64,000 nt of DNA from Thermococcus sp. 18S1 (lineage in GTDB: Archaea; Methanobacteriota_B; Thermococci; Thermococcales; Thermococcaceae). Below are positions 21,216-52,757 of this stretch, in pieces. The notes beneath the pieces are model-generated. The model ran no database searches and had not been told where the DNA came from. It saw nothing but the letters and a program-made list of their open reading frames with translations. The stretch is taken from NCBI RefSeq assembly GCF_012027645.1, contig NZ_SNUU01000001.1, positions 806,001 through 870,000 of the forward strand. Direction: 5' to 3'. Positions within the stretch are counted from its first letter, which is position 1, and every line of letters begins with the position of its first letter. The position numbers and the translations under genes are program-made.

Positions 21216-23573
21216 TCACTGTCCCCAAGCGTCGTTTAACCTAAATGTGCCCCTATCCAGCACCTTTCCGTTCCTCTCGTAAGTATACCTTACGACGGCG
21301 CTCTCTTCCAGCTCCGGGGGAAGGGAAAACTCATCCAATCCCGTCACGTCGTAGCTCTCCTCGAAGACCCGGGTTCCGTTGTCCATAAAGCCCTCGAGTA
21401 CCAGGCGCGTTCCGGTGGCGTTCGTGAACTTCAGGACGATGCGTCCCTCCCGGGAAACAACGGCCACGTTGGGGTGTTCGAATCTGAAGATCTTGATGTA
21501 TCCTCCGTCGGAGTACACCATGCTGTATCCCGGCAGGCTCTCCGTGAACATCAGCCTTGCGAGGGTTGTGTTGAAAGCTTTCCAGTTCATAAGGACGGCG
21601 TAGCCGTAGTTCAAGTTTATGTACACATATGCATCAGCTTTTGGGGCGCCGGTAACGTTGACCTCTTCTATCCCATGTGAATTTTCCACGTATGCTTCCA
21701 TGGGAGAGAACACACTGTTGCCAGCGTTTGCGATAACTTTCCAGTTATTGTCGTTTCCTGGTCGTGCAGTTATGGAGTATCCATCAATAGAGAATATTAA
21801 TGTCTCTCCTCTTATCTCAACAAGAGGTATGGGAATCATTGGATATTCATTTAAGGGAACATTGGCAATTTTTAGAACTGCCGGGAACTTCCTCACGGTA
21901 TCATAAGAGACTATGATATAATCTACTCCGAGGCTCATTAGTTCGTCCCTTTTAACCATGCCCATATAGTACTTTGCAACGAATTCGTTTGGAGCGCCTC
22001 CTGGGAGGGCCCCTCTATGCGCATAGTATGTCACCCAGTGGGCCTGATCCCACCATGTGAGGACAACGTCATTTTTGTTGGATGTGATTCCAAGATTTGT
22101 TAGTGCGGCTTCCCACTCCTCATTAATGAACGGTTTTAGGTTCATGGTATTTTGAACGGCCAAAAGGACTGTGGGAATCACCAGAAGGATAATGATTAGT
22201 GAGGGGAGGTATTTTTTGTGGGGCACCTTCAGATTTCGAACCTCTTGCATCATTTCCCATGCTCCAACTGCCGCCAGTATTGTAACGGCGAGAGAGCCTA
22301 TAAATAGAAATCTTGCCCATATTGTCACCATAGCTACACTGGGGAGTGCAAAGCTGAGCACGACGAAATCAGCCATCTTTGCCCGAGATGGCCTCAGGTG
22401 AAGGATAAAGAACGGAAGCGCAAGTAACAGTGTCCCATAAGATACCCACACGTCCCTCAGTGATGTCCTCCTGGTCTCTGCGATGGCTTTCTCTCCGAAT
22501 CTCTGAAGGAAGCGTAGAAACACTCTCTCAATGAAACCATGGTACTTAATACCCACGATTACCATCGCCAGAAGCAGTATTATGGCGATCATTGATCTCC
22601 CCTTCATGCCCCTGACGCCCTTGTGGACTCCAAAAAGAAGAAGAACCCCAATGAGTGTAAGGGGTACTGCGTACTTAAGGTAAACCAGCAGAAACGCATC
22701 TTTTACGAGTTCGAAATGGAGCCCAAGGTTCCTTGCAACCTCAATGCCATCCGGACGGTTCCACCCAAACATACCATACCCCAATATCGCTCCCATCACA
22801 TTGGCAACCAAAGCTCCGAAGGCTGTTGAGATAACAAGTGCTAGTGAGTCAAGAAAAGCCCAGTCTCTCCGAAGGAGCAACGCCCCAATGGCAATGAAGA
22901 GGGCATTTGAAAGGAGAAATACAAATATCAGGTAGTACGCACTCCAGAATGCTGCTGCCATTCCTGCAGCAAGCCCGGGAATGATGTAAAAAAGCAGCCT
23001 TCTGTACTTCTCTCTTCCCTGATTTGCGAGCTCAAGTGCAAAACCGATCCCGAGGAGCGCTATCGAGTACCAGAGCAGGAAGTAATTGTCGCCTCTGTAA
23101 TAATTTGCCATAGAGCGGAAGATATGGCCAAAGCTGATGGCGATGAAGAGAGATGAGAGAGTTGCAACTTCGTTGTTGTACAGACTTTTGACTGCGAAAT
23201 AACCCACAATTATGGTTGCAATGCCTATTATTGGGGGTGTCATTTTAAACGCGGTCTCAAGAGACACTCCGAATGGGGAGAGCAGGCGGTGGAAATACAG
23301 TGGGAGCATCCAGAACCCTTTGGGGTGGAATTGGTCTATGAGCATTCCCCATGGAGCGTTGGCGTAGGGGAAGAGGTTTACCCATTCTCCTATTTTGGCT
23401 GAATACTCAACGTAGGCCGCATGAAAGTAGGTATCGTAGCCTAAGAAATATTTGAGGCGGAACGTGATCATGCGGAGTATGAGGGTGAGAATCGTTAAGA
23501 TGAGGAGAAAATATCTGGTTCTTGTGAGGCTCCACAGCCCATTGAAAATTTTCTGAGTTTCAGTGGTCCTCAT
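21216..23573 (-). CDS. aglB: Oligosaccharyltransferase STT3/AglB, paralogue 1
   Basis: 785 residues: about 11-13 membrane segments, then a soluble C-terminal domain of roughly 300 residues. It transfers a lipid-linked glycan to Asn in N-X-S/T at the outer membrane face. The first loop carries GYDTYFHAAY with the conserved acidic residue. The WWDxG sequon-binding motif is present as W507-W508-D509-Q510-A511, with Ala in place of the conserved Gly. The last 130 residues closely match the paralogue at 46961. GC content is higher in the 3' 500 bp than in the middle, hinting at mosaic ancestry. Confidence 0.92.
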   Translation of the reverse strand: MRTTETQKIFNGLWSLTRTRYFLLILTILTLILRMITFRLKYFLGYDTYFHAAYVEYSAKIGEWVNLFPYANAPWGMLIDQFHPKGFWMLPLYFHRLLSPFGVSLETAFKMTPPIIGIATIIVGYFAVKSLYNNEVATLSSLFIAISFGHIFRSMANYYRGDNYFLLWYSIALLGIGFALELANQGREKYRRLLFYIIPGLAAGMAAAFWSAYYLIFVFLLSNALFIAIGALLLRRDWAFLDSLALVISTAFGALVANVMGAILGYGMFGWNRPDGIEVARNLGLHFELVKDAFLLVYLKYAVPLTLIGVLLLFGVHKGVRGMKGRSMIAIILLLAMVIVGIKYHGFIERVFLRFLQRFGEKAIAETRRTSLRDVWVSYGTLLLALPFFILHLRPSRAKMADFVVLSFALPSVAMVTIWARFLFIGSLAVTILAAVGAWEMMQEVRNLKVPHKKYLPSLIIILLVIPTVLLAVQNTMNLKPFINEEWEAALTNLGITSNKNDVVLTWWDQAHWVTYYAHRGALPGGAPNEFVAKYYMGMVKRDELMSLGVDYIIVSYDTVRKFPAVLKIANVPLNEYPMIPIPLVEIRGETLIFSIDGYSITARPGNDNNWKVIANAGNSVFSPMEAYVENSHGIEEVNVTGAPKADAYVYINLNYGYAVLMNWKAFNTTLARLMFTESLPGYSMVYSDGGYIKIFRFEHPNVAVVSREGRIVLKFTNATGTRLVLEGFMDNGTRVFEESYDVTGLDEFSLPPELEESAVVRYTYERNGKVLDRGTFRLNDAWGQ

Positions 23574-43533: not shown

Positions 43534-43938
43534 ATGAAAGTGTACCGTCTCTCGATCCCGGAGCGGGATGCCCTTAAGGAGCGGATAAGGGCGTACCTTA
43601 CGTCCAGGGAGGACGTTCTCTTCGCCTACATTCACGGTTCTTTCCTGGAGGACCGTCCTTTTAGGGATATAGACGTTGCGGTTTTTGTGAAGTCAAAACC
43701 CGACAGATTCTACGAGATGGAGCTTGAAGATGAGCTGTCCAGGTTAACCGGCTTTCCGGTTGATGTAAGACTGCTGAACGATGCTCCCGTGGAGTTTAGG
43801 TTTCACGTCATCGGTGGGGAGCTCCTCTTCAGCAGGGACGAAAAGGCCAGGTGTGACTTTGAAGAGCGAACCATGAGGGAATACCACGATTATTCTCACT
43901 ATCTCGAACTGTACCGGAGGGAGGCCCTTGGAATATGA
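43534..43938 (+). CDS. MNT-type nucleotidyltransferase, MntA-like antitoxin
   Basis: 134 residues from the ATG at 43534. The minimal nucleotidyltransferase motif GSFLEDRPFRDIDVAVF supplies the GS and DxD metal ligands, with a third Asp in FPVDVRLL. In characterised MntA/HepT pairs this protein adds AMP to a tyrosine next to the HEPN active site and thereby silences the toxin. The downstream HEPN gene overlaps by 11 bases. Confidence 0.85.
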   Translation: MKVYRLSIPERDALKERIRAYLTSREDVLFAYIHGSFLEDRPFRDIDVAVFVKSKPDRFYEMELEDELSRLTGFPVDVRLLNDAPVEFRFHVIGGELLFSRDEKARCDFEERTMREYHDYSHYLELYRREALGI

Positions 43939-44347
43939 TACCGAAAAAGTAACCCGGCTTATGGTGGAAGCCAGGAACGCACTGGATGCCCTTTATGAGC
44001 TTGCAAAACTCCCCCGGGAAGAGTTCCTTGGCAGCAGGCATTACGTTTCGAGTGCCAAGTACAACCTCCTGGTCGCGATTGAGGCGTGCATTGATATAGC
44101 TTACCATTTGATTTCAAAAAACCGCATGAGGCTTCCAAGGGATTATGCTGACTCTTTCAGGGTTCTTCATGAGAACGGAATCCTCAATGAGGAGCTGACC
44201 AGACGGCTCATTCTGATGTCCCGCTTTAGAAATCGACTGGTGCACATATACTGGGACGTTGATGACGAGGTTATCTATTCGATAATAAACGAGAACCTCG
44301 AGGACATCGAGGAGTTCCTCACGAGGATTGTGGAAATAATCAAATGA
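43928..44347 (+). CDS. HEPN-domain toxin, HepT-like (DUF86)
   Basis: 139 residues, all helical, starting at a TTG inside the upstream gene. The RNase-type HEPN motif is intact as RNRLVHIY, an exact Rx4HxY whose Tyr is the AMPylation site in HepT proteins. With the MntA-like gene it forms a type VII toxin-antitoxin module. The pair lies between an epimerase and a sugar nucleotidyltransferase, a common kind of location for these modules in Thermococcales. Confidence 0.87.
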   Translation: MEYDTEKVTRLMVEARNALDALYELAKLPREEFLGSRHYVSSAKYNLLVAIEACIDIAYHLISKNRMRLPRDYADSFRVLHENGILNEELTRRLILMSRFRNRLVHIYWDVDDEVIYSIINENLEDIEEFLTRIVEIIK

Positions 44348-45463: not shown

Positions 45464-46555
45464 ATGCTTTTTGACACCCGTCCAAAGGCTTCGATGGATG
45501 AGGTTTTTGGAAGGAAAGCGGAGTACTGGGAACTGGTTGAGAAAATCGAAAACGGAAGGAACTTCTTCGTCATCACCGGTCCAAGGAGGATTGGAAAGAC
45601 CACCTTTCTCACCGCGGCGCTGAACGACCTTCACGAAAAGTACAAAATACCCCACATAATAATCGACGCAAGGACCATATCGACTGCCAATTCAAAGAAC
45701 CCTCAGGGACAGATCGTGAGGGAGATTCTCAGCATTAAAAAGCATTCCAGAAAGGGGAAGCTCTCGAAGATAACAGATTCCATTGAAGGTATCACCATTA
45801 AGGGGGTCAAACTAAAGCTCAGGAAGGACGAGGAGTACACTTTGCCGGATATCCTGAGGGAGCTCAACGACTCCAACGAGCTGCTCATAATAGCGTATGA
45901 TGAGGCGCAGTATTTTAGGTACGCGAACGAGGACTTCACAAAAACCCTCGCCTGGGTTTATGATCGACTGCCCAACATAGTCACGATCGTGACGGGCTCG
46001 CAGGTGGGTGTTCTTGAGAACTTTCTCAGATTCGATGACTACAAGGCACCCCTATATGGCAGGTACCACGTCAAGATACCCCTAGTGAGGTTCACTCCGT
46101 CCCAGAGTTTCGAGTTCCTTGAGAGGGGCTTCAAGGAGTACGGACTGTCCCCTGATCCAAAGGAGATTCTCTCGGCCATCAAAGCCCTCGATGGAGTGCC
46201 CGGCTGGCTGACCCACTACGGTGCGAGCAGGGTCGATGGGAAGACCCACTGGGACGCCGTTCAGGAGGTTCTCATCGAGGCTGAGGGATACATCCGGTCG
46301 GAGTTCGAGGAACTTGACAGGGCTTCCCCGAGGTACAGGGCGATCATGGAAATCGTGGCTGGCATCACTTCCCGGAAGGACTCTGCTTCCTGGACGGAAA
46401 TAAAGAACGCCCTTGAACTCCGGGAGGGCAGGGGGATTGATGACAAGAACCTCAACCTGCTCCTTAAGAAGCTCGTTAACTACGGCTTTCTGGAGCATGC
46501 GGGAAAGGAATACCTCATCCCGGACCCCGTGATCAGAAGGCTCTTCCAGACGTGA
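45464..46555 (+). CDS. Archaeal ATPase of the P-loop STAND-like family
   Basis: 363 residues. It begins LFDTRPKASMDEVFGR, the usual start of the Thermococcales/Methanocaldococcus archaeal-ATPase family. Walker A GPRRIGKTT is at 39-47 and Walker B LLIIAYDEAQYF near 140. A GSQVGVLENF sensor and a C-terminal winged-helix region (residues about 280-363) follow. The family is expanded in archaea and behaves like a mobile or defence-associated gene; its function is unknown. It is flanked upstream by two palindromes that probably control it. Confidence 0.9.
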   Translation: MLFDTRPKASMDEVFGRKAEYWELVEKIENGRNFFVITGPRRIGKTTFLTAALNDLHEKYKIPHIIIDARTISTANSKNPQGQIVREILSIKKHSRKGKLSKITDSIEGITIKGVKLKLRKDEEYTLPDILRELNDSNELLIIAYDEAQYFRYANEDFTKTLAWVYDRLPNIVTIVTGSQVGVLENFLRFDDYKAPLYGRYHVKIPLVRFTPSQSFEFLERGFKEYGLSPDPKEILSAIKALDGVPGWLTHYGASRVDGKTHWDAVQEVLIEAEGYIRSEFEELDRASPRYRAIMEIVAGITSRKDSASWTEIKNALELREGRGIDDKNLNLLLKKLVNYGFLEHAGKEYLIPDPVIRRLFQT

Positions 46556-46960: not shown

Positions 46961-49330
46961 ATGGAACGGTGGAGGAGGTCTGAAATAGCATCCTTTCTGC
47001 ACACCATCATCGTGCCCAAGTTCGCGGCCCCTATCTTAACCGCCATCGCCCTCGCCTTCAGGCTCATCCCCCTGCGCTTTGAGTACCTCCTCGGCTACGA
47101 TCCATACTTCCACCTCGCTTACATCAGGTATGCTCTGGAGAAGGGAGAGTGGGTGAACTTCTTCACTCACGCCCTGGGCCCCTACGGGTACCAGATCGGC
47201 AGATTCCATCCACTCGGCCTGTGGATGACACCCGTCTACTTCTATAAACTCCTCTCCCCCTTCGGCGTTTCGCTCTACAACGCCTTCAGAATAACGCCGG
47301 TTGTATTCGGCGTCCTCACCGTGCTGTTCACGTACCTCGCCGTGCTGAGGCTCTACGGTAGGAGGGAGGCCTTCCTCTCGGCGTTTCTCCTGGCCGTGAG
47401 CTTCGGCCACGTCTTCCGCTCGATGGCCGGTTACTACCGCGGCGACAACTACATGCTCTTCCTCTACAGCGCGGCCCTCCTTGGAACCGCCGTTCCCCTC
47501 TCCCTCAGGGGCCCCCGGTGGAGGAACGTCCGGCTGGCCCTCTACCTCCTGCCCGGGATCTTCACCGGCCTTTCCGCGGCCTTCTGGCAGGCATACTACC
47601 CCATATTCGCACTCGTTGCCGCCAACGCCCTCCTCCTCGCCGTGGGTGCGTTCCTCCTCGGGAGGGACAGGTACCTCATGGATTCCCTGGCCCTCCTCGC
47701 ATTCCTGGCCGCCGGCGCCCTTCTGGCAAACTCGATAGGCTCCCACCTCGGGTACGGCATGGTGGGCGCCACCCACTGGCTCGGGAAAAAGCTGGCCGAG
47801 GAGCTCGGGGTCCAGTTCGGGTTCATCAGGGACCTGTTCCTCCTTCTGTACCTCAAATACGCACTTCCCCTCGCCGTGGCCTCCGTCATCGCCCTGGCGA
47901 TCCTCTCCAGGTTCGTCCGTGATAGAAAACAGAGGGTGCTGATAGTCCTCATCGGGACGGCCGCGGCGCTCTGGCTGGCTGTCCGGTACTACGGCGTCAT
48001 AAACGGGGCCATCCTTCGCATTTTCCCGGAGAGCCCGATAGCCGAGACCCAGAGGACTGCCTTCGATGACTGGTGGGAGGCCTACGGCATCGCGGGACTT
48101 CTCGTGCCACTCTTTCTCATCCGCTTCCTCAGGCGCCCCAGTCCCGCCGATTTCCTCCTCCTGGGCACCGCCATCGTCATGATACCCATGGCTGTCGTCT
48201 GGACCAGGTTCCTCTTCATATCCTCCCTCGCAGTGGCCGCTATGACCGGCATTGGGCTGGTGGCCCTCAGTGATTGGATGGGTGCCCTGATTGGAATATC
48301 CGAGGATGAGAACAGACGGAAGTGGCTCTCGGCGGCGGTGTCCGTTCTTTTGATTGGCGTCCCCCTCGTTTCGGCCTATCAGGGGCTGGGCACGACGCTG
48401 AGCGTCCACCCCTTCATGACCGACAACTGGGAGTCCGCCCTCACCTACCTCGGGAACGTCTCCAACCCCAACGACGTCGTCCTCACCTGGTGGGACCAGG
48501 GCCACTGGGTGACCTACTACTCCATGAGGGCGCCGGTTGCCCAGGGCGGGCCCAGCGGGTGGGTGGCTAGGTACTATCTCGGTCTCGTCGGCGAGGAGGA
48601 GCTGATGAAGCTTGGCGTTGATTACGTCATCGTCTCCTACGACACTCTGATGAAGTTCGGGGCAGTTATGGAGACGGCAGGGGTCTCCCCGGACGAGTAC
48701 GGCCTCGTGGTGCTTCACAGGGTGCCCTCCCGCGGATCGATCCTCGTGTTCTCCGGCGGCCCCTACTCCGTGATGGCCGTTCCGGGGAAGGATAGGTGGG
48801 ACGTCAAGGTGGACATCGGCGGGCGCTTCCTGCTGCCCGAGAGGGTCTTCGTTGAGGCCGGTGGAAGACTGGACGAGGTGGCCCTCTCCGGCCGCCCCAC
48901 CGCCGACGTCTACATTTACATAAACCTGAACTACGGCTACGCGGTTCTCATGAACGGCAGGGCCTTCGACACCCCCCTGGCGCGGCTGATGTTTACCGAT
49001 GACTATCCCGGGAATTACACCCTCGTGTACTCCGATGGCGGCTACGTGAAGATCTTCCTGTTCAGGCATCCGAACGTCGTCGTTACCGCGGAGAACGGCT
49101 CCGTCGTTCTCAGGTTCACCAACGCTACCGGGACCGGCCTCGGCATCTACGGCTATCTCGACAACGGCACGCTCGTCTTCAAGAAGTGGTACGGCGTTGG
49201 AGGGAAGGATTCATTTGTTCTCCCCGCCGACATCAACGGAAGCGTCGTCGTGAGGTACACCTACGTCCGGAAGAAAACGGTGCTGGATAGGGGGGTTTTC
49301 AGGATAGACGACATCCTGGCGAGTGGCTGA
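46961..49330 (+). CDS. aglB: Oligosaccharyltransferase STT3/AglB, paralogue 2
   Basis: 789 residues with about 13 membrane segments and a C-terminal soluble domain from about residue 490. First-loop acidic motif GYDPYFHLAYIRY; second acidic pair region AGYYRGDNYML; sequon-binding motif W510-W511-D512-Q513-G514 (WWDQG). Its C-terminal 130 residues are very similar to the paralogue at 21216 (INLNYGYAVLMN, YSDGGYVKIF, FTNATGTGL). GC-rich throughout and without the composition break seen in the paralogue. GAGGGG precedes the ATG; TATA near 46901. Confidence 0.93.
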   Translation: MERWRRSEIASFLHTIIVPKFAAPILTAIALAFRLIPLRFEYLLGYDPYFHLAYIRYALEKGEWVNFFTHALGPYGYQIGRFHPLGLWMTPVYFYKLLSPFGVSLYNAFRITPVVFGVLTVLFTYLAVLRLYGRREAFLSAFLLAVSFGHVFRSMAGYYRGDNYMLFLYSAALLGTAVPLSLRGPRWRNVRLALYLLPGIFTGLSAAFWQAYYPIFALVAANALLLAVGAFLLGRDRYLMDSLALLAFLAAGALLANSIGSHLGYGMVGATHWLGKKLAEELGVQFGFIRDLFLLLYLKYALPLAVASVIALAILSRFVRDRKQRVLIVLIGTAAALWLAVRYYGVINGAILRIFPESPIAETQRTAFDDWWEAYGIAGLLVPLFLIRFLRRPSPADFLLLGTAIVMIPMAVVWTRFLFISSLAVAAMTGIGLVALSDWMGALIGISEDENRRKWLSAAVSVLLIGVPLVSAYQGLGTTLSVHPFMTDNWESALTYLGNVSNPNDVVLTWWDQGHWVTYYSMRAPVAQGGPSGWVARYYLGLVGEEELMKLGVDYVIVSYDTLMKFGAVMETAGVSPDEYGLVVLHRVPSRGSILVFSGGPYSVMAVPGKDRWDVKVDIGGRFLLPERVFVEAGGRLDEVALSGRPTADVYIYINLNYGYAVLMNGRAFDTPLARLMFTDDYPGNYTLVYSDGGYVKIFLFRHPNVVVTAENGSVVLRFTNATGTGLGIYGYLDNGTLVFKKWYGVGGKDSFVLPADINGSVVVRYTYVRKKTVLDRGVFRIDDILASG

Positions 49331-49381
49331 TATTAATGGCTCAAAGGCCTCATAATGCCATCACAAAGCCATCATGATTAC

Positions 49382-49431
49382 AGATGAGTCCCATGAGCGA
49401 GGCAAGTCAAGCTCGCAAAACTATCCAGAAA
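49382..49431 (+). pseudogene. Degenerate 5' fragment of a flippase gene
   Basis: The stretch TGAGTCCCATGAGCGAGG and the bases after it match the start of the truncated flippase at 51095 (TGAACCCCATGAGCGAGA). Translated, MSEASQAR parallels MSETSQAL; a one-base deletion then shifts the frame, with similarity continuing to about 49431. It lies just upstream of the AbiE-like pair, so that pair is flanked by two copies of the same gene start. Confidence 0.5.
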
Positions 49432-49470
49432 ACCAAAAGTGTTATATATAATACTTTCTAATTTTTGGAC

Positions 49471-50406
49471 ATGAGAACCCTTTCAAAAATGGAGGTTAGA
49501 GTACTTTTGAAACTCAAGGAGGAAACGAGTGTAAGTAAGCTGGCCGGGGAACTGGGCTTGTCAATCCCCCGAACCTCAGCTCTTGTTGCATCCCTTGAAA
49601 GAACGGGTTTGATAAGGACCGAAAAAAGAGGAAAACACAGGGTGGTCTCGCTAAGTGATGCAAAAGCCGCGGAGCTTTTTAAAAGACTTGTTTTCAAGTT
49701 CGGCCATATGCCCCTTGATGAGATTCTGAGCGGGAAGAGTCTCCCCATTTTCGCAGTTCTCAGAGACGCTCCGTTAAGTGCCCATGAGCTCCTCATAAAG
49801 AGCAACCTTCCCAGGAGCACCCTCTATTACGTGATTGACGGGCTGTCCAATTACGGTATCATCGGGAAGAAAGATGAAAAGTATTTTCTAGTGGAGAGAT
49901 ATAGCCTGTTTCACGAGTTTGCAGAGGAATTTTATGAGTTGCAAAATTCCATCAAAACGAGAGAGTTCTCCGAGGACTCCACCCTAGTGTGGAGTGGAGT
50001 TGGAGAATTTATTATGTCGACGAGGGAGTATAAGGGGAAAGATGTTGGAAACTTTCATCTAACTGGGCTTGAAAGATTCAGCGATTTTGGGGTGGAGCTT
50101 ATTGGAACCGGACAATATCACTATTATTATTCTGAGAAAGCGGAGGAGCTTTCTCTGGAAGAGGTTATTGTGCATGCATTGCTAATTGATTTCAGCCCAA
50201 GAACAATTCTGTATTCAATCGTCCTCTTGTTGGGGCATAAAGGTAAAATAAATCAAAAGAAGCTTTTAAAATTTGGTAGAAAATACGACATCAGCGTGAG
50301 CGAATTGTTGGGGTATCTTGAGGGTAAAGAGGTTAAAAGATACCCCTACCCCTCTATGAAAGAAGTGAAAGAAATCCTCAAAATGTACTTCGGTGAAGGG
50401 AAGTGA
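49471..50406 (+). CDS. Winged-helix regulator, AbiEi-like partner of the 50403 nucleotidyltransferase
   Basis: 311 residues from the ATG at 49471. A TATA box (GTTATATATAATAC, 49441-49454) about 25 bp upstream makes this leaderless and excludes the TTG at 49465. Two helix-turn-helix regions: SVSKLAGELGLSIPRTSALVAS near residue 20 (quoted core KLAGELGLSIPRTS) and SAHELLIKSNLPRSTLYYV near 100. A C-terminal domain of unknown type follows. The stop overlaps the nucleotidyltransferase start as GTGA. The layout resembles the antitoxin/repressor of AbiE-type (type IV) modules. Confidence 0.75.
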   Translation: MRTLSKMEVRVLLKLKEETSVSKLAGELGLSIPRTSALVASLERTGLIRTEKRGKHRVVSLSDAKAAELFKRLVFKFGHMPLDEILSGKSLPIFAVLRDAPLSAHELLIKSNLPRSTLYYVIDGLSNYGIIGKKDEKYFLVERYSLFHEFAEEFYELQNSIKTREFSEDSTLVWSGVGEFIMSTREYKGKDVGNFHLTGLERFSDFGVELIGTGQYHYYYSEKAEELSLEEVIVHALLIDFSPRTILYSIVLLLGHKGKINQKKLLKFGRKYDISVSELLGYLEGKEVKRYPYPSMKEVKEILKMYFGEGK

Positions 50407-51089
50407 GTGCGGTAACCAGAGGAAAGATAATATCTAAATTTCACTTGCTGGAGAAAAAGGCTGAGCTGCTTAACATCGAGCCCCTGGAAGTCTACTTGAT
50501 TGGTGGTGGGAATCTGGCTCTCAGAGGGCTCAAAAGTGCGACAAAAGATATTGACATTGTGGTGTTAAGCAGGGGGCAGTTTTCTCTTTTGCAGGACCTT
50601 CTGGAAACTCCGCTACCAAAACTGCCAGTTTATGTGAGGCAGTACCGCTCACGGTGGGATTATGACCTCGGCATGAGCACGCGGTACCTGCACCCATTAC
50701 AGGGGTTCAGTCTCGATGTTTTTGTGAAAAGAGTTCTCAACAAGCTGTACCTGTCTGAAAGCATGGTTTCAAGGGCTGAAGCTCCAGAAGAGTTCAGCTC
50801 CCATGAGTTGTTCAAGGTCATGCTGGTTTCAAAGGAGGACATCTTCCTGTTTAAGAGCGTGACCTCACTGGAAAGGACGAGAGATGTTGAGGATCTGATT
50901 GCACTTGTTGAAACCGGGCTAGAGTATGAGATAATCATCCAGGAGCTTGAGAACCAGCTTTTTAAGGATGAGTCACTCAGGAGCTTGGTTCCAGGTATGA
51001 TACATCGTGTTGACCTTTTAATGAAACAAATTGGAACTGTAAAGGGGCTTATCCGCCTTAAGGAATATTTGAAAGAAATAAGCGGGTGA
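50403..51089 (+). CDS. AbiEii/DUF1814-like or DUF6036-like nucleotidyltransferase
   Basis: 228 residues with a GTG start coupled to the regulator. The nucleotidyltransferase core is YLIGGGNLALRGLKSATKDIDIVVL near residues 31-55 (GG...R...T.DIDI, quoted core GLKSATKDIDIVVL), as in AbiEii toxins. A basic LVSKEDIFLFKSVTSLERTRDVEDL segment, matching the family's K..D..D region, lies near residue 140. Probably the toxin half of a two-gene module that nucleotidylates tRNA or a protein; the target is unknown. It ends six bases before the truncated flippase start. Confidence 0.75.
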   Translation: MSAVTRGKIISKFHLLEKKAELLNIEPLEVYLIGGGNLALRGLKSATKDIDIVVLSRGQFSLLQDLLETPLPKLPVYVRQYRSRWDYDLGMSTRYLHPLQGFSLDVFVKRVLNKLYLSESMVSRAEAPEEFSSHELFKVMLVSKEDIFLFKSVTSLERTRDVEDLIALVETGLEYEIIIQELENQLFKDESLRSLVPGMIHRVDLLMKQIGTVKGLIRLKEYLKEISG

Positions 51090-51094
51090 ACCCC

Positions 51095-51427
51095 ATGAGC
51101 GAGACAAGCCAGGCTCTGCAGAAGATCGCCAGAGGGACGGGGATTGTCTTTGCCGGGACTGTTATTTCGATGTTCTTCGGGTTCTTAAGCAGGGCGGTTA
51201 TAGCGAGGTACTTTTCCACCGGAGAGTATGGAGTGTTTAATTTAGCTTTGACCGTCTTGAGCATCGCCCTTGTTGTTGCCACGTTCGGTTCTCAGAACGC
51301 CTTGCCGAGAGAGGTGGCTTTCTACAGGGAGAAGGGGCCTTCAAGGGTCGGGGATTTGGCTTCAACGGCTCTGGTGATTGTTGCGGTGAGCACTATGAAT
51401 GTTCACAGAGACATGATGGGCACTTAA
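51095..51427 (+). pseudogene. Truncated polysaccharide flippase (N-terminal part only)
   Basis: 110 codons from the ATG at 51095 (a GTG at 51086 is also in frame). MSETSQALQKIARGTGIVFAG and the next two membrane segments match the start of Wzx/MATE-fold polysaccharide exporters of 400-500 residues. Near 51397 the sequence leaves the family and stops after STMNVHRDMMGT. It is followed 98 bp later by an intact flippase of a different subgroup. It is a recombination remnant and unlikely to transport anything. Confidence 0.75.
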
Positions 51428-51524: not shown

Positions 51525-52757
51525 ATGACGGTGTTGCAGTTGATTAAAAATGAAATCAAAAACCTCAAGAGTCCTCTTTATAGGAATTCCGTCTACATAT
51601 CTCTAGCCTCCCTGACAAATGCCCTCGCCGGCTTTCTTTTCTGGACTATTGCAGCGAGACTTTATCCGGCTGAGGATGTCGGCGTTGCCTCCGCCGTAGT
51701 CTCCGCTATAAATCTGACGTTTGTTCTATCAATGCTGGGAATGAACTTCGCCATAATCCGTTTTTATCCGGACTACCGGGAGAGGGTTGTGGGGAGTGCA
51801 CTGGTTTTGACTTCACTCGCCGCCCTGCTGTTTTCAGCAGTCTACGGGCTTGTTATGAGGGGTTCGAATTCTTTAGGTGGTACATTCACACCGGAGTTCC
51901 TATCTGTGTTTGTTATTTTCTCCGTTGTGGGGGCACTCTACAATGTTCTCTACACCTACGCAATAGCCAAAAGAAAGGCGGAGCAGGGTTTTGTGCAGAG
52001 TACACTGTTTTCCCTGAGGTTTGTCTTTCTATTCCTCCTCGTTTCCCTCGGCGTCATGGGAATAATCGGTTCCTTTGGGCTGGGCCTGTTGCTTGGACTT
52101 TTATACGCGATTATCTTCGTTGATGACATCGCTATTAAGCTCGACTTGGAATTCCTCAGGGAAGCGTTTAGGTTTTCCCTTGGAAACTACGTGGCGAACA
52201 TCGCCAACGTCGCGCCGAACTACATTATGCCAACGATAGTTTTAAGCATGCTCGGAAAGGAGCAGGCGGCGTATTATTATATGGCCTTCGCAATAGGCAA
52301 CATGATCCTGCTCGTTCCAAACTCCATAAACACGTCCTTCTTCGTGGAGGGGAGCCACGGATTGAAAAATATAAGGGCAACGCTGAAGAAGGCCATGGCA
52401 CTCAGCTACCTTTACCTCCTCGTTGCCAACCTTGGAGTGTGGCTTTTTGGAGAACCCATCTTGGAATTTTTTGGAAAAGATTATGCGAGTGGCTTTACTC
52501 TTCTAAAACTTATAGTGTTTGGGGGTTTTTTTGTTGTTCCTCTAAAGTTCTTGGTGACAATCTTAAATGTTCACAAAAGGATTATTGGAGTAGTAATGGT
52601 AAATTTCGTAAAGGCAATACTTTTCCTCATACTCAGCTATTCGTTAATACCCGTTTTTGGGATTGAGGGTGTTGGGTGGGGATGGATATTTTCCAATGTT
52701 GCTATTGTTCTCATAATACGTGATGTTATTTCTATAATGAATTCACGTACCTCTTAA
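51525..52757 (+). CDS. Polysaccharide flippase, Wzx-like
   Basis: 410 residues, about 12 membrane segments, starting MTVLQLIKNEIKNLKSPLYR with ASLTNALAGFLFWTIAARLY in the first helix. It flips lipid-linked glycans across the membrane for AglB. GGGGAGAGGAT precedes the ATG; TATA near 51454. The 5' three quarters are GC-balanced. From about 52440 the gene turns markedly AT-rich, like the operon that follows on the other strand, so it appears to be a chimera. Its last 26 bases overlap the convergent pyruvyltransferase gene. Confidence 0.9.
   Translation: MTVLQLIKNEIKNLKSPLYRNSVYISLASLTNALAGFLFWTIAARLYPAEDVGVASAVVSAINLTFVLSMLGMNFAIIRFYPDYRERVVGSALVLTSLAALLFSAVYGLVMRGSNSLGGTFTPEFLSVFVIFSVVGALYNVLYTYAIAKRKAEQGFVQSTLFSLRFVFLFLLVSLGVMGIIGSFGLGLLLGLLYAIIFVDDIAIKLDLEFLREAFRFSLGNYVANIANVAPNYIMPTIVLSMLGKEQAAYYYMAFAIGNMILLVPNSINTSFFVEGSHGLKNIRATLKKAMALSYLYLLVANLGVWLFGEPILEFFGKDYASGFTLLKLIVFGGFFVVPLKFLVTILNVHKRIIGVVMVNFVKAILFLILSYSLIPVFGIEGVGWGWIFSNVAIVLIIRDVISIMNSRTS

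Follow-up and report, generated by a model that had tools for sequence, protein, structure and literature searches.

The glycan locus that lies behind aglB or rml genes in Thermococcaceae is a mosaic array in which truncated starts of one sugar-lipid flippase gene separate toxin-antitoxin-type modules. The window, by which we mean the whole 64,000-nucleotide stretch of Thermococcus sp. 18S1 DNA analysed here, contains one unit of this array, consisting of aglB, a flippase-start relic, a regulator and nucleotidyltransferase gene pair, and a flippase start. This flippase start appears to act as the joint where the glycan locus acquires, loses and rearranges modules. Taken as a whole, we consider it rather probable that recombination at this joint built the mosaic array and that the pair in the window is an AbiE/MenAT-type toxin-antitoxin system.

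Two copies of a flippase start flank the module

The array unit begins at an aglB-type oligosaccharyltransferase gene (46961..49330, + strand; Pfam STT3 / AglB_core-like), which is the left neighbour of the array. Downstream of this gene lies relic 1 (49383..49414, +; nhmmer), which retains the ribosome-binding region and ~21 bp of the coding sequence of a flippase starting with MSEASQA and which ends at the module promoter. Relic 2 (51084..51427, +; profile match) is a flippase start that abuts the end of the module and is broken off after 110 codons; the corresponding truncated ORF (51095-51427, +) has 110 of ~510 codons left. The sequence CCCATGAGCGAG(A/G)CAAG(C/T)CA(G/A)GCTC is found at 49390-49414 and again at 51092-51116, with 22 of 25 bases identical and 3 mismatches; when the complete window was dinucleotide-shuffled 100 times, the expected number of such matches was 0. 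Using a DNA profile built from 32 full-length flippase starts, we found relic 1 to be matched at E=0.0018 (nhmmer, ~0.8 Mb), with 0 matches in the reversed sequence, and the second copy to be a complete start with a full profile match (E=7.5e-46). The duplicated flippase start, first proposed in a preliminary description of this stretch, is therefore real and exceeds chance similarity. The shared start stands, but the length of 50 bp given for the fragment at 49382 does not, as the similarity of relic 1 spans ~32 bp and past GCTC turns into module promoter sequence.

On the right side, the stop codon (TGA) of the nucleotidyltransferase gene falls inside the ribosome-binding site of the relic 2 flippase. 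An intact flippase gene of another subgroup follows (51525..52757, +; Polysacc_synt, 2e-9), as had been noted before, and has replaced the truncated one. The cluster to which this flippase belongs, c45, also occurs 3' of the truncated start in genomes G023 and G077, and G023 shares both the truncation joint of relic 2 and the downstream flippase, at 89% nucleotide identity. It had been suggested that the module arrived by recombination at the flippase gene and thereby broke it. The first half of this suggestion agrees with what we see in relatives, which hold other cargo at the flippase start, and with G017 (locus L093), where aglB stands directly before an intact flippase. The second half does not hold, because the right side of the module joins a complete start and because in G023 a different module precedes the same broken start and the same kind of replacement flippase. 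The truncation at codon 110 is thus a separate event, common to both genomes, and is not due to the arrival of this module. Behind related aglB genes we counted no module in G017, one in the window and two in G034, whose aglB is 93.7% identical in amino acid sequence to that of the window and which has the downstream spacer and first relic in common with it.

Several further features were observed around these sites. Short-period repeat spacers (tgagtcaa-, gatgcaaaa- and tcataaagg/catcaaagc-type) are positioned directly 5' of many flippase starts and relics, for example at 49340-49390 in the window, 9760-9830 in L073 and 9607-9670 in L074. A second aglB-type gene of the window (21216-23573) is 48% identical to that at 46961-49330. 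Upstream of the latter, a HepT-like gene (43928-44347) overlaps a small upstream gene, possibly as a HEPN-MNT pair (window 43534-44347), and is followed by an AAA ATPase gene (45464-46555) whose cluster is the same as that of array cargo.

The module encodes a leaderless regulator and a Pol-beta-fold nucleotidyltransferase

Consistent with the preliminary description, the ORFs between the two starts encode a leaderless winged-helix regulator and a nucleotidyltransferase with a GG...DID core. The regulator, a putative antitoxin (49471..50406, +), has two winged-helix domains and a C-terminal HVO_2833_C domain. It matches PF24271 (5e-16) and TrmB (2e-10) in Pfam, with MarR also among its domain matches besides TrmB and HVO_2833_C, and its AlphaFold2 model has a pLDDT of 94. 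The module promoter (49422..49471, +) contains a TATA box at 49443-49453 flanked by inverted-repeat arms, TATCCAGAAA (49422-49431) and TTTTTGGACA (49462-49471). Since the ATG of the regulator lies ~24 nt after the TATA box, the gene is leaderless. TATA box and arms are conserved in 15 module copies, and the inverted repeat is probably an autoregulation operator, judging from sequence. The regulator and nucleotidyltransferase genes overlap by 4 bp and form one operon (49471-50406 and 50403-51089). PADLOC returned only a generic winged-helix (Csa3/CasR) match and a marginal BrxB match.

The second gene (50403..51089, +) encodes a DUF6036/MenT-like nucleotidyltransferase of the Pol-beta fold, a putative toxin, with a GG..DID..D motif. 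Residues G34, G35, K44, D49, D51, D105, R124, E145, D146 and K151 are invariant in 39 archaeal sequences, and D105 is the third Asp of the catalytic motif, invariant along with the GG and DID core. The protein thereby has all the hallmarks of the Pol-beta minimal nucleotidyltransferase superfamily (GG/GS, DxD and a third Asp), and a fold match as well: the best PDB match of its AlphaFold2 model (pLDDT 88.9) is MenT1 (E=1e-5). PF19502 (DUF6036) matches 9 of 13 aligned relatives, at best with 1.3e-5, and does not match the window protein itself. A profile of the nucleotidyltransferase matches AbiEii proteins of the same hotspot at E=5e-6. However, AbiEii PF08843 gave 0 matches to the window nucleotidyltransferase even at E 10 (best value among relatives, 0.014), no AbiEi antitoxin Pfam domains were found in the window regulator, and no more than 59 columns of the winged helix align with AbiEi in hhalign. 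The pair is therefore AbiE-like, as first described, in layout and fold, but is not a member of AbiE by Pfam. PHROGs and a phage collection yielded one weak PHROG of unknown function and no phage match, and a viral structure library yielded generic nucleotidyltransferase-fold matches only.

The two genes are adjacent in 58 of 65 archaeal loci outside the window, and plasmid relatives occur in 85 records, with a DUF6036 annotation in most of the examples listed. In one Altarchaeum ORF (L149, 8062-9777), an HVO_2833-type regulator and the nucleotidyltransferase are fused into a single protein, which has an extra C-terminal stretch. The conservation of the pair, its fusion and its plasmid relatives support a toxin-antitoxin role, and this archaea-wide, plasmid-borne pair is a likely toxin-antitoxin system. 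Pairs with no flippase nearby, which had been named as evidence against arrival at the flippase gene, do exist, but only among Thermococcaceae paralogues of 41-45% identity, which lacked flippase-start relics where checked, and in other archaea; in the orthologous Thermococcaceae clade relics are nearly always present. Branching in the regulator tree is not resolved well enough to demonstrate transfer between genera.

Truncated flippase starts recur across Thermococcaceae

We surveyed 41 loci, namely the window and 40 further stretches, each no longer than 20 kb. Here the DNA profile detected 38 flippase starts at full length and 56 in truncated form. The same profile test applied to other segments of the flippase gene gave 0-6 partial matches, and partial matches to the starts or ends of other genes resemble diverged paralogues rather than cut-off copies. 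Truncated starts are present in at least 27 of 94 Thermococcaceae genomes and, in closed genomes, lie mostly ≤12 kb from the flippase. In two genomes, G029 and G092, relics are found far from any full start, which fits array rearrangement or flippase loss. G029 contains a three-relic module array beside rml genes with no flippase (C1:500001-518000; L166), and its full flippase, accompanied by an AbiE pair, is 440 kb away from this array.

All array-internal relics end within ~110 bp of the start codon, and relics of 22-60 bp are many. Most have kept the ribosome-binding region and start codon, and a repeat-rich spacer is often found upstream, as might be expected if the repeated starts were kept because they serve the modules, whether as leader peptides or as sites of coupling or regulation. 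Many relics, however, are frameshifted, lack a start codon or run into an immediate stop; their lengths vary by module family; and synonymous-site conservation is only mildly higher in intact starts than in the rest of the flippase gene (0.52 vs 0.43). We regard a retained function as very improbable.

Three related ideas about the relics were rejected. Selection on the flippase-start DNA was dismissed given the slight rise in synonymous conservation. An age gradient along the array was dismissed because relics are no more decayed when they lie farther from the intact flippase (rho 0.11, p 0.48), which also leaves serial insertion at the intact copy unsupported. Lastly, a recent origin of the relics from the flippase of the same genome was dismissed because that copy is usually not their closest match.

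Module joints are fixed and module order is shuffled

Between relics we found true AbiE (PF08843 + PF13338, in the same hotspot of other genomes), VapBC (PIN with a VapB-like partner), UPF0175/DUF3368-PIN, PemK/RHH, Schlafen-AlbA_2, AAA/DUF4143, other AAA ATPases, DUF2283/DUF4258, and the pair of the window. Each module family has its own left joint to the relic, just ahead of the module promoter. In several families the module is also fused on its right to a flippase start at constant spacing, yet neighbours vary between genomes. In the family of the window, G000, G089, G083 and G059 share much the same relic-promoter joint, and shortened variants of it occur in G042, G016 and G082; at the other end, the last 4-5 bp of the nucleotidyltransferase gene lie within the flippase-start motif in 6 of 8 cases, its stop codon being part of the flippase ribosome-binding region. 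Across 97 starts there are 65 different combinations of left neighbour, start and right neighbour, and 19 kinds of neighbours precede intact flippase starts. We observed directly that the starts are repeated, that this is specific to them, that the joints are fixed and that module order is shuffled.

One could read the relics as remains of tandem 'module + flippase' duplications whose bodies were later deleted, with no insertion hotspot involved. Loci L061, L078 and L080 each have two nearly full flippases with rml genes between them, and terminal flippase copies are truncated at many lengths, both of which speak for such duplications. That array relics all end near the start codon, with no comparable set of 3'-end or internal pieces, and that a given module family shows nearly the same joint in different genomes speak against them, and we consider this origin unlikely.

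A mobile element or dedicated recombinase could recognise the flippase start as an attachment site and bring along a copy of that start, in the way that tRNA-gene integrases do. The layout is indeed that of a gene-restoring integration hotspot, with an empty site in the G017 and G031 loci (L093 and L092) and an intact flippase downstream in most module-bearing loci; moreover, breakpoints are limited to the first ~100 bp, and 5 of 6 genera have modules at this site. Against this, the breakpoint varies by module family instead of being one single point, and a scan of the cargo families, in which clusters c22, c26, c36 and c58 carry no family assignment, turned up no integrase. Rfam and tRNA searches at the window site found nothing, arguing against a tRNA-type attachment site. 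We view a dedicated integration system as improbable, though less so than a retained function of the starts.

Additional sequence features accompany some relics. A palindrome, ATACCCCCCGAACCGGTTCGGGGGGTAT, is found with small variations just 3' of several relics, before ATPase and c14-type modules (L065 6221-6300, L068, L075 4820-4900, L078 and L098). The c22 gene, a reverse-strand gene of 174 aa with no family assignment, recurs after relics (L063 9529-10053; L084 1507-2031) with a near-fixed gene-relic joint, GGGACGGGG meeting GATTAACAAACCAG.

A model for module exchange at the flippase start

In the recombination model that we favour, the start common to both would let incoming 'module + flippase start' DNA recombine with the flippase already in place. 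This exchange would restore a complete reading frame downstream and leave the old start stranded upstream, and later exchanges between starts would reshuffle the modules. We infer homologous recombination as the engine. Several points count against this model. Many relics, at 22-60 bp, offer little length for exchange of the RecA/RadA type, and the model does not account for how the first joints arose. In addition, relics neither decay along the array nor usually have the flippase of their own genome as closest match, and the regulator tree does not establish transfer. Truncation also proceeds by other routes, since 3' ends of Schlafen-AlbA_2 genes are over-represented (25 ends vs 13 starts; L062, L065, L070, L076 and L084). 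Within the module, the regulator would bind the promoter inverted repeat and restrain a tRNA-type nucleotidyltransferase in the manner of AbiE or MenAT. With a putative toxin so restrained, the module may be kept by addiction, and it may also limit viruses or plasmids.

Extending this model, we tentatively suggest, at somewhat less than even confidence, an integrase-free cassette array in which the conserved start of a host glycan flippase is a portable recombination joint, and toxin-antitoxin or defence modules, even flippase bodies, are swapped between strains. If true, the turnover of immunity modules would be linked to that of surface glycans, which are possible virus receptors, and archaea lacking integrons would have a possible route for gathering toxin-antitoxin and defence modules beside surface-glycan genes. 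The truncated flippase start could serve as a sequence signature of module boundaries in many genomes, with the prediction that any uncharacterised genes enclosed by a pair of relics make up a complete module. No earlier description of the array or of the pair was found in the literature searched, which most subscription papers lay outside.

Comparison with known systems

The pair of the window resembles AbiE, a type IV toxin-antitoxin system, in having the regulator gene first, an overlapping nucleotidyltransferase gene second and an inverted repeat in the promoter, as well as in the Pol-beta fold with two catalytic motifs and in profile similarity to AbiEii. It differs in lacking AbiEi and AbiEii Pfam matches and in its regulator, which has two winged helices and HVO_2833_C, whereas AbiEi aligns at the winged helix only. 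MenAT of Mycobacterium tuberculosis provides the best solved-structure match of the nucleotidyltransferase, MenT1, but at ~15% identity and a TM of ~0.5, and with an unrelated partner protein. The haloarchaeal DUF6036 and HVO_2833-type regulator pairs consist of the same genes, with the same order in the 58 of 65 archaeal loci and plasmid copies annotated as DUF6036; here the difference lies in the flippase-start relics, which the 41-45% identical Thermococcaceae paralogues checked do not have, in a relic scan confined to Thermococcaceae. The array as a whole recalls integrons and defence islands, in that small, mobile, toxin-antitoxin-rich modules stand in a row and are rearranged around a recurring joint. 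Unlike in integrons, no integrase is present among the cargo clusters scanned, the joint is the start of a host gene rather than an attC-type site, and the engine of the array is probably homologous recombination.
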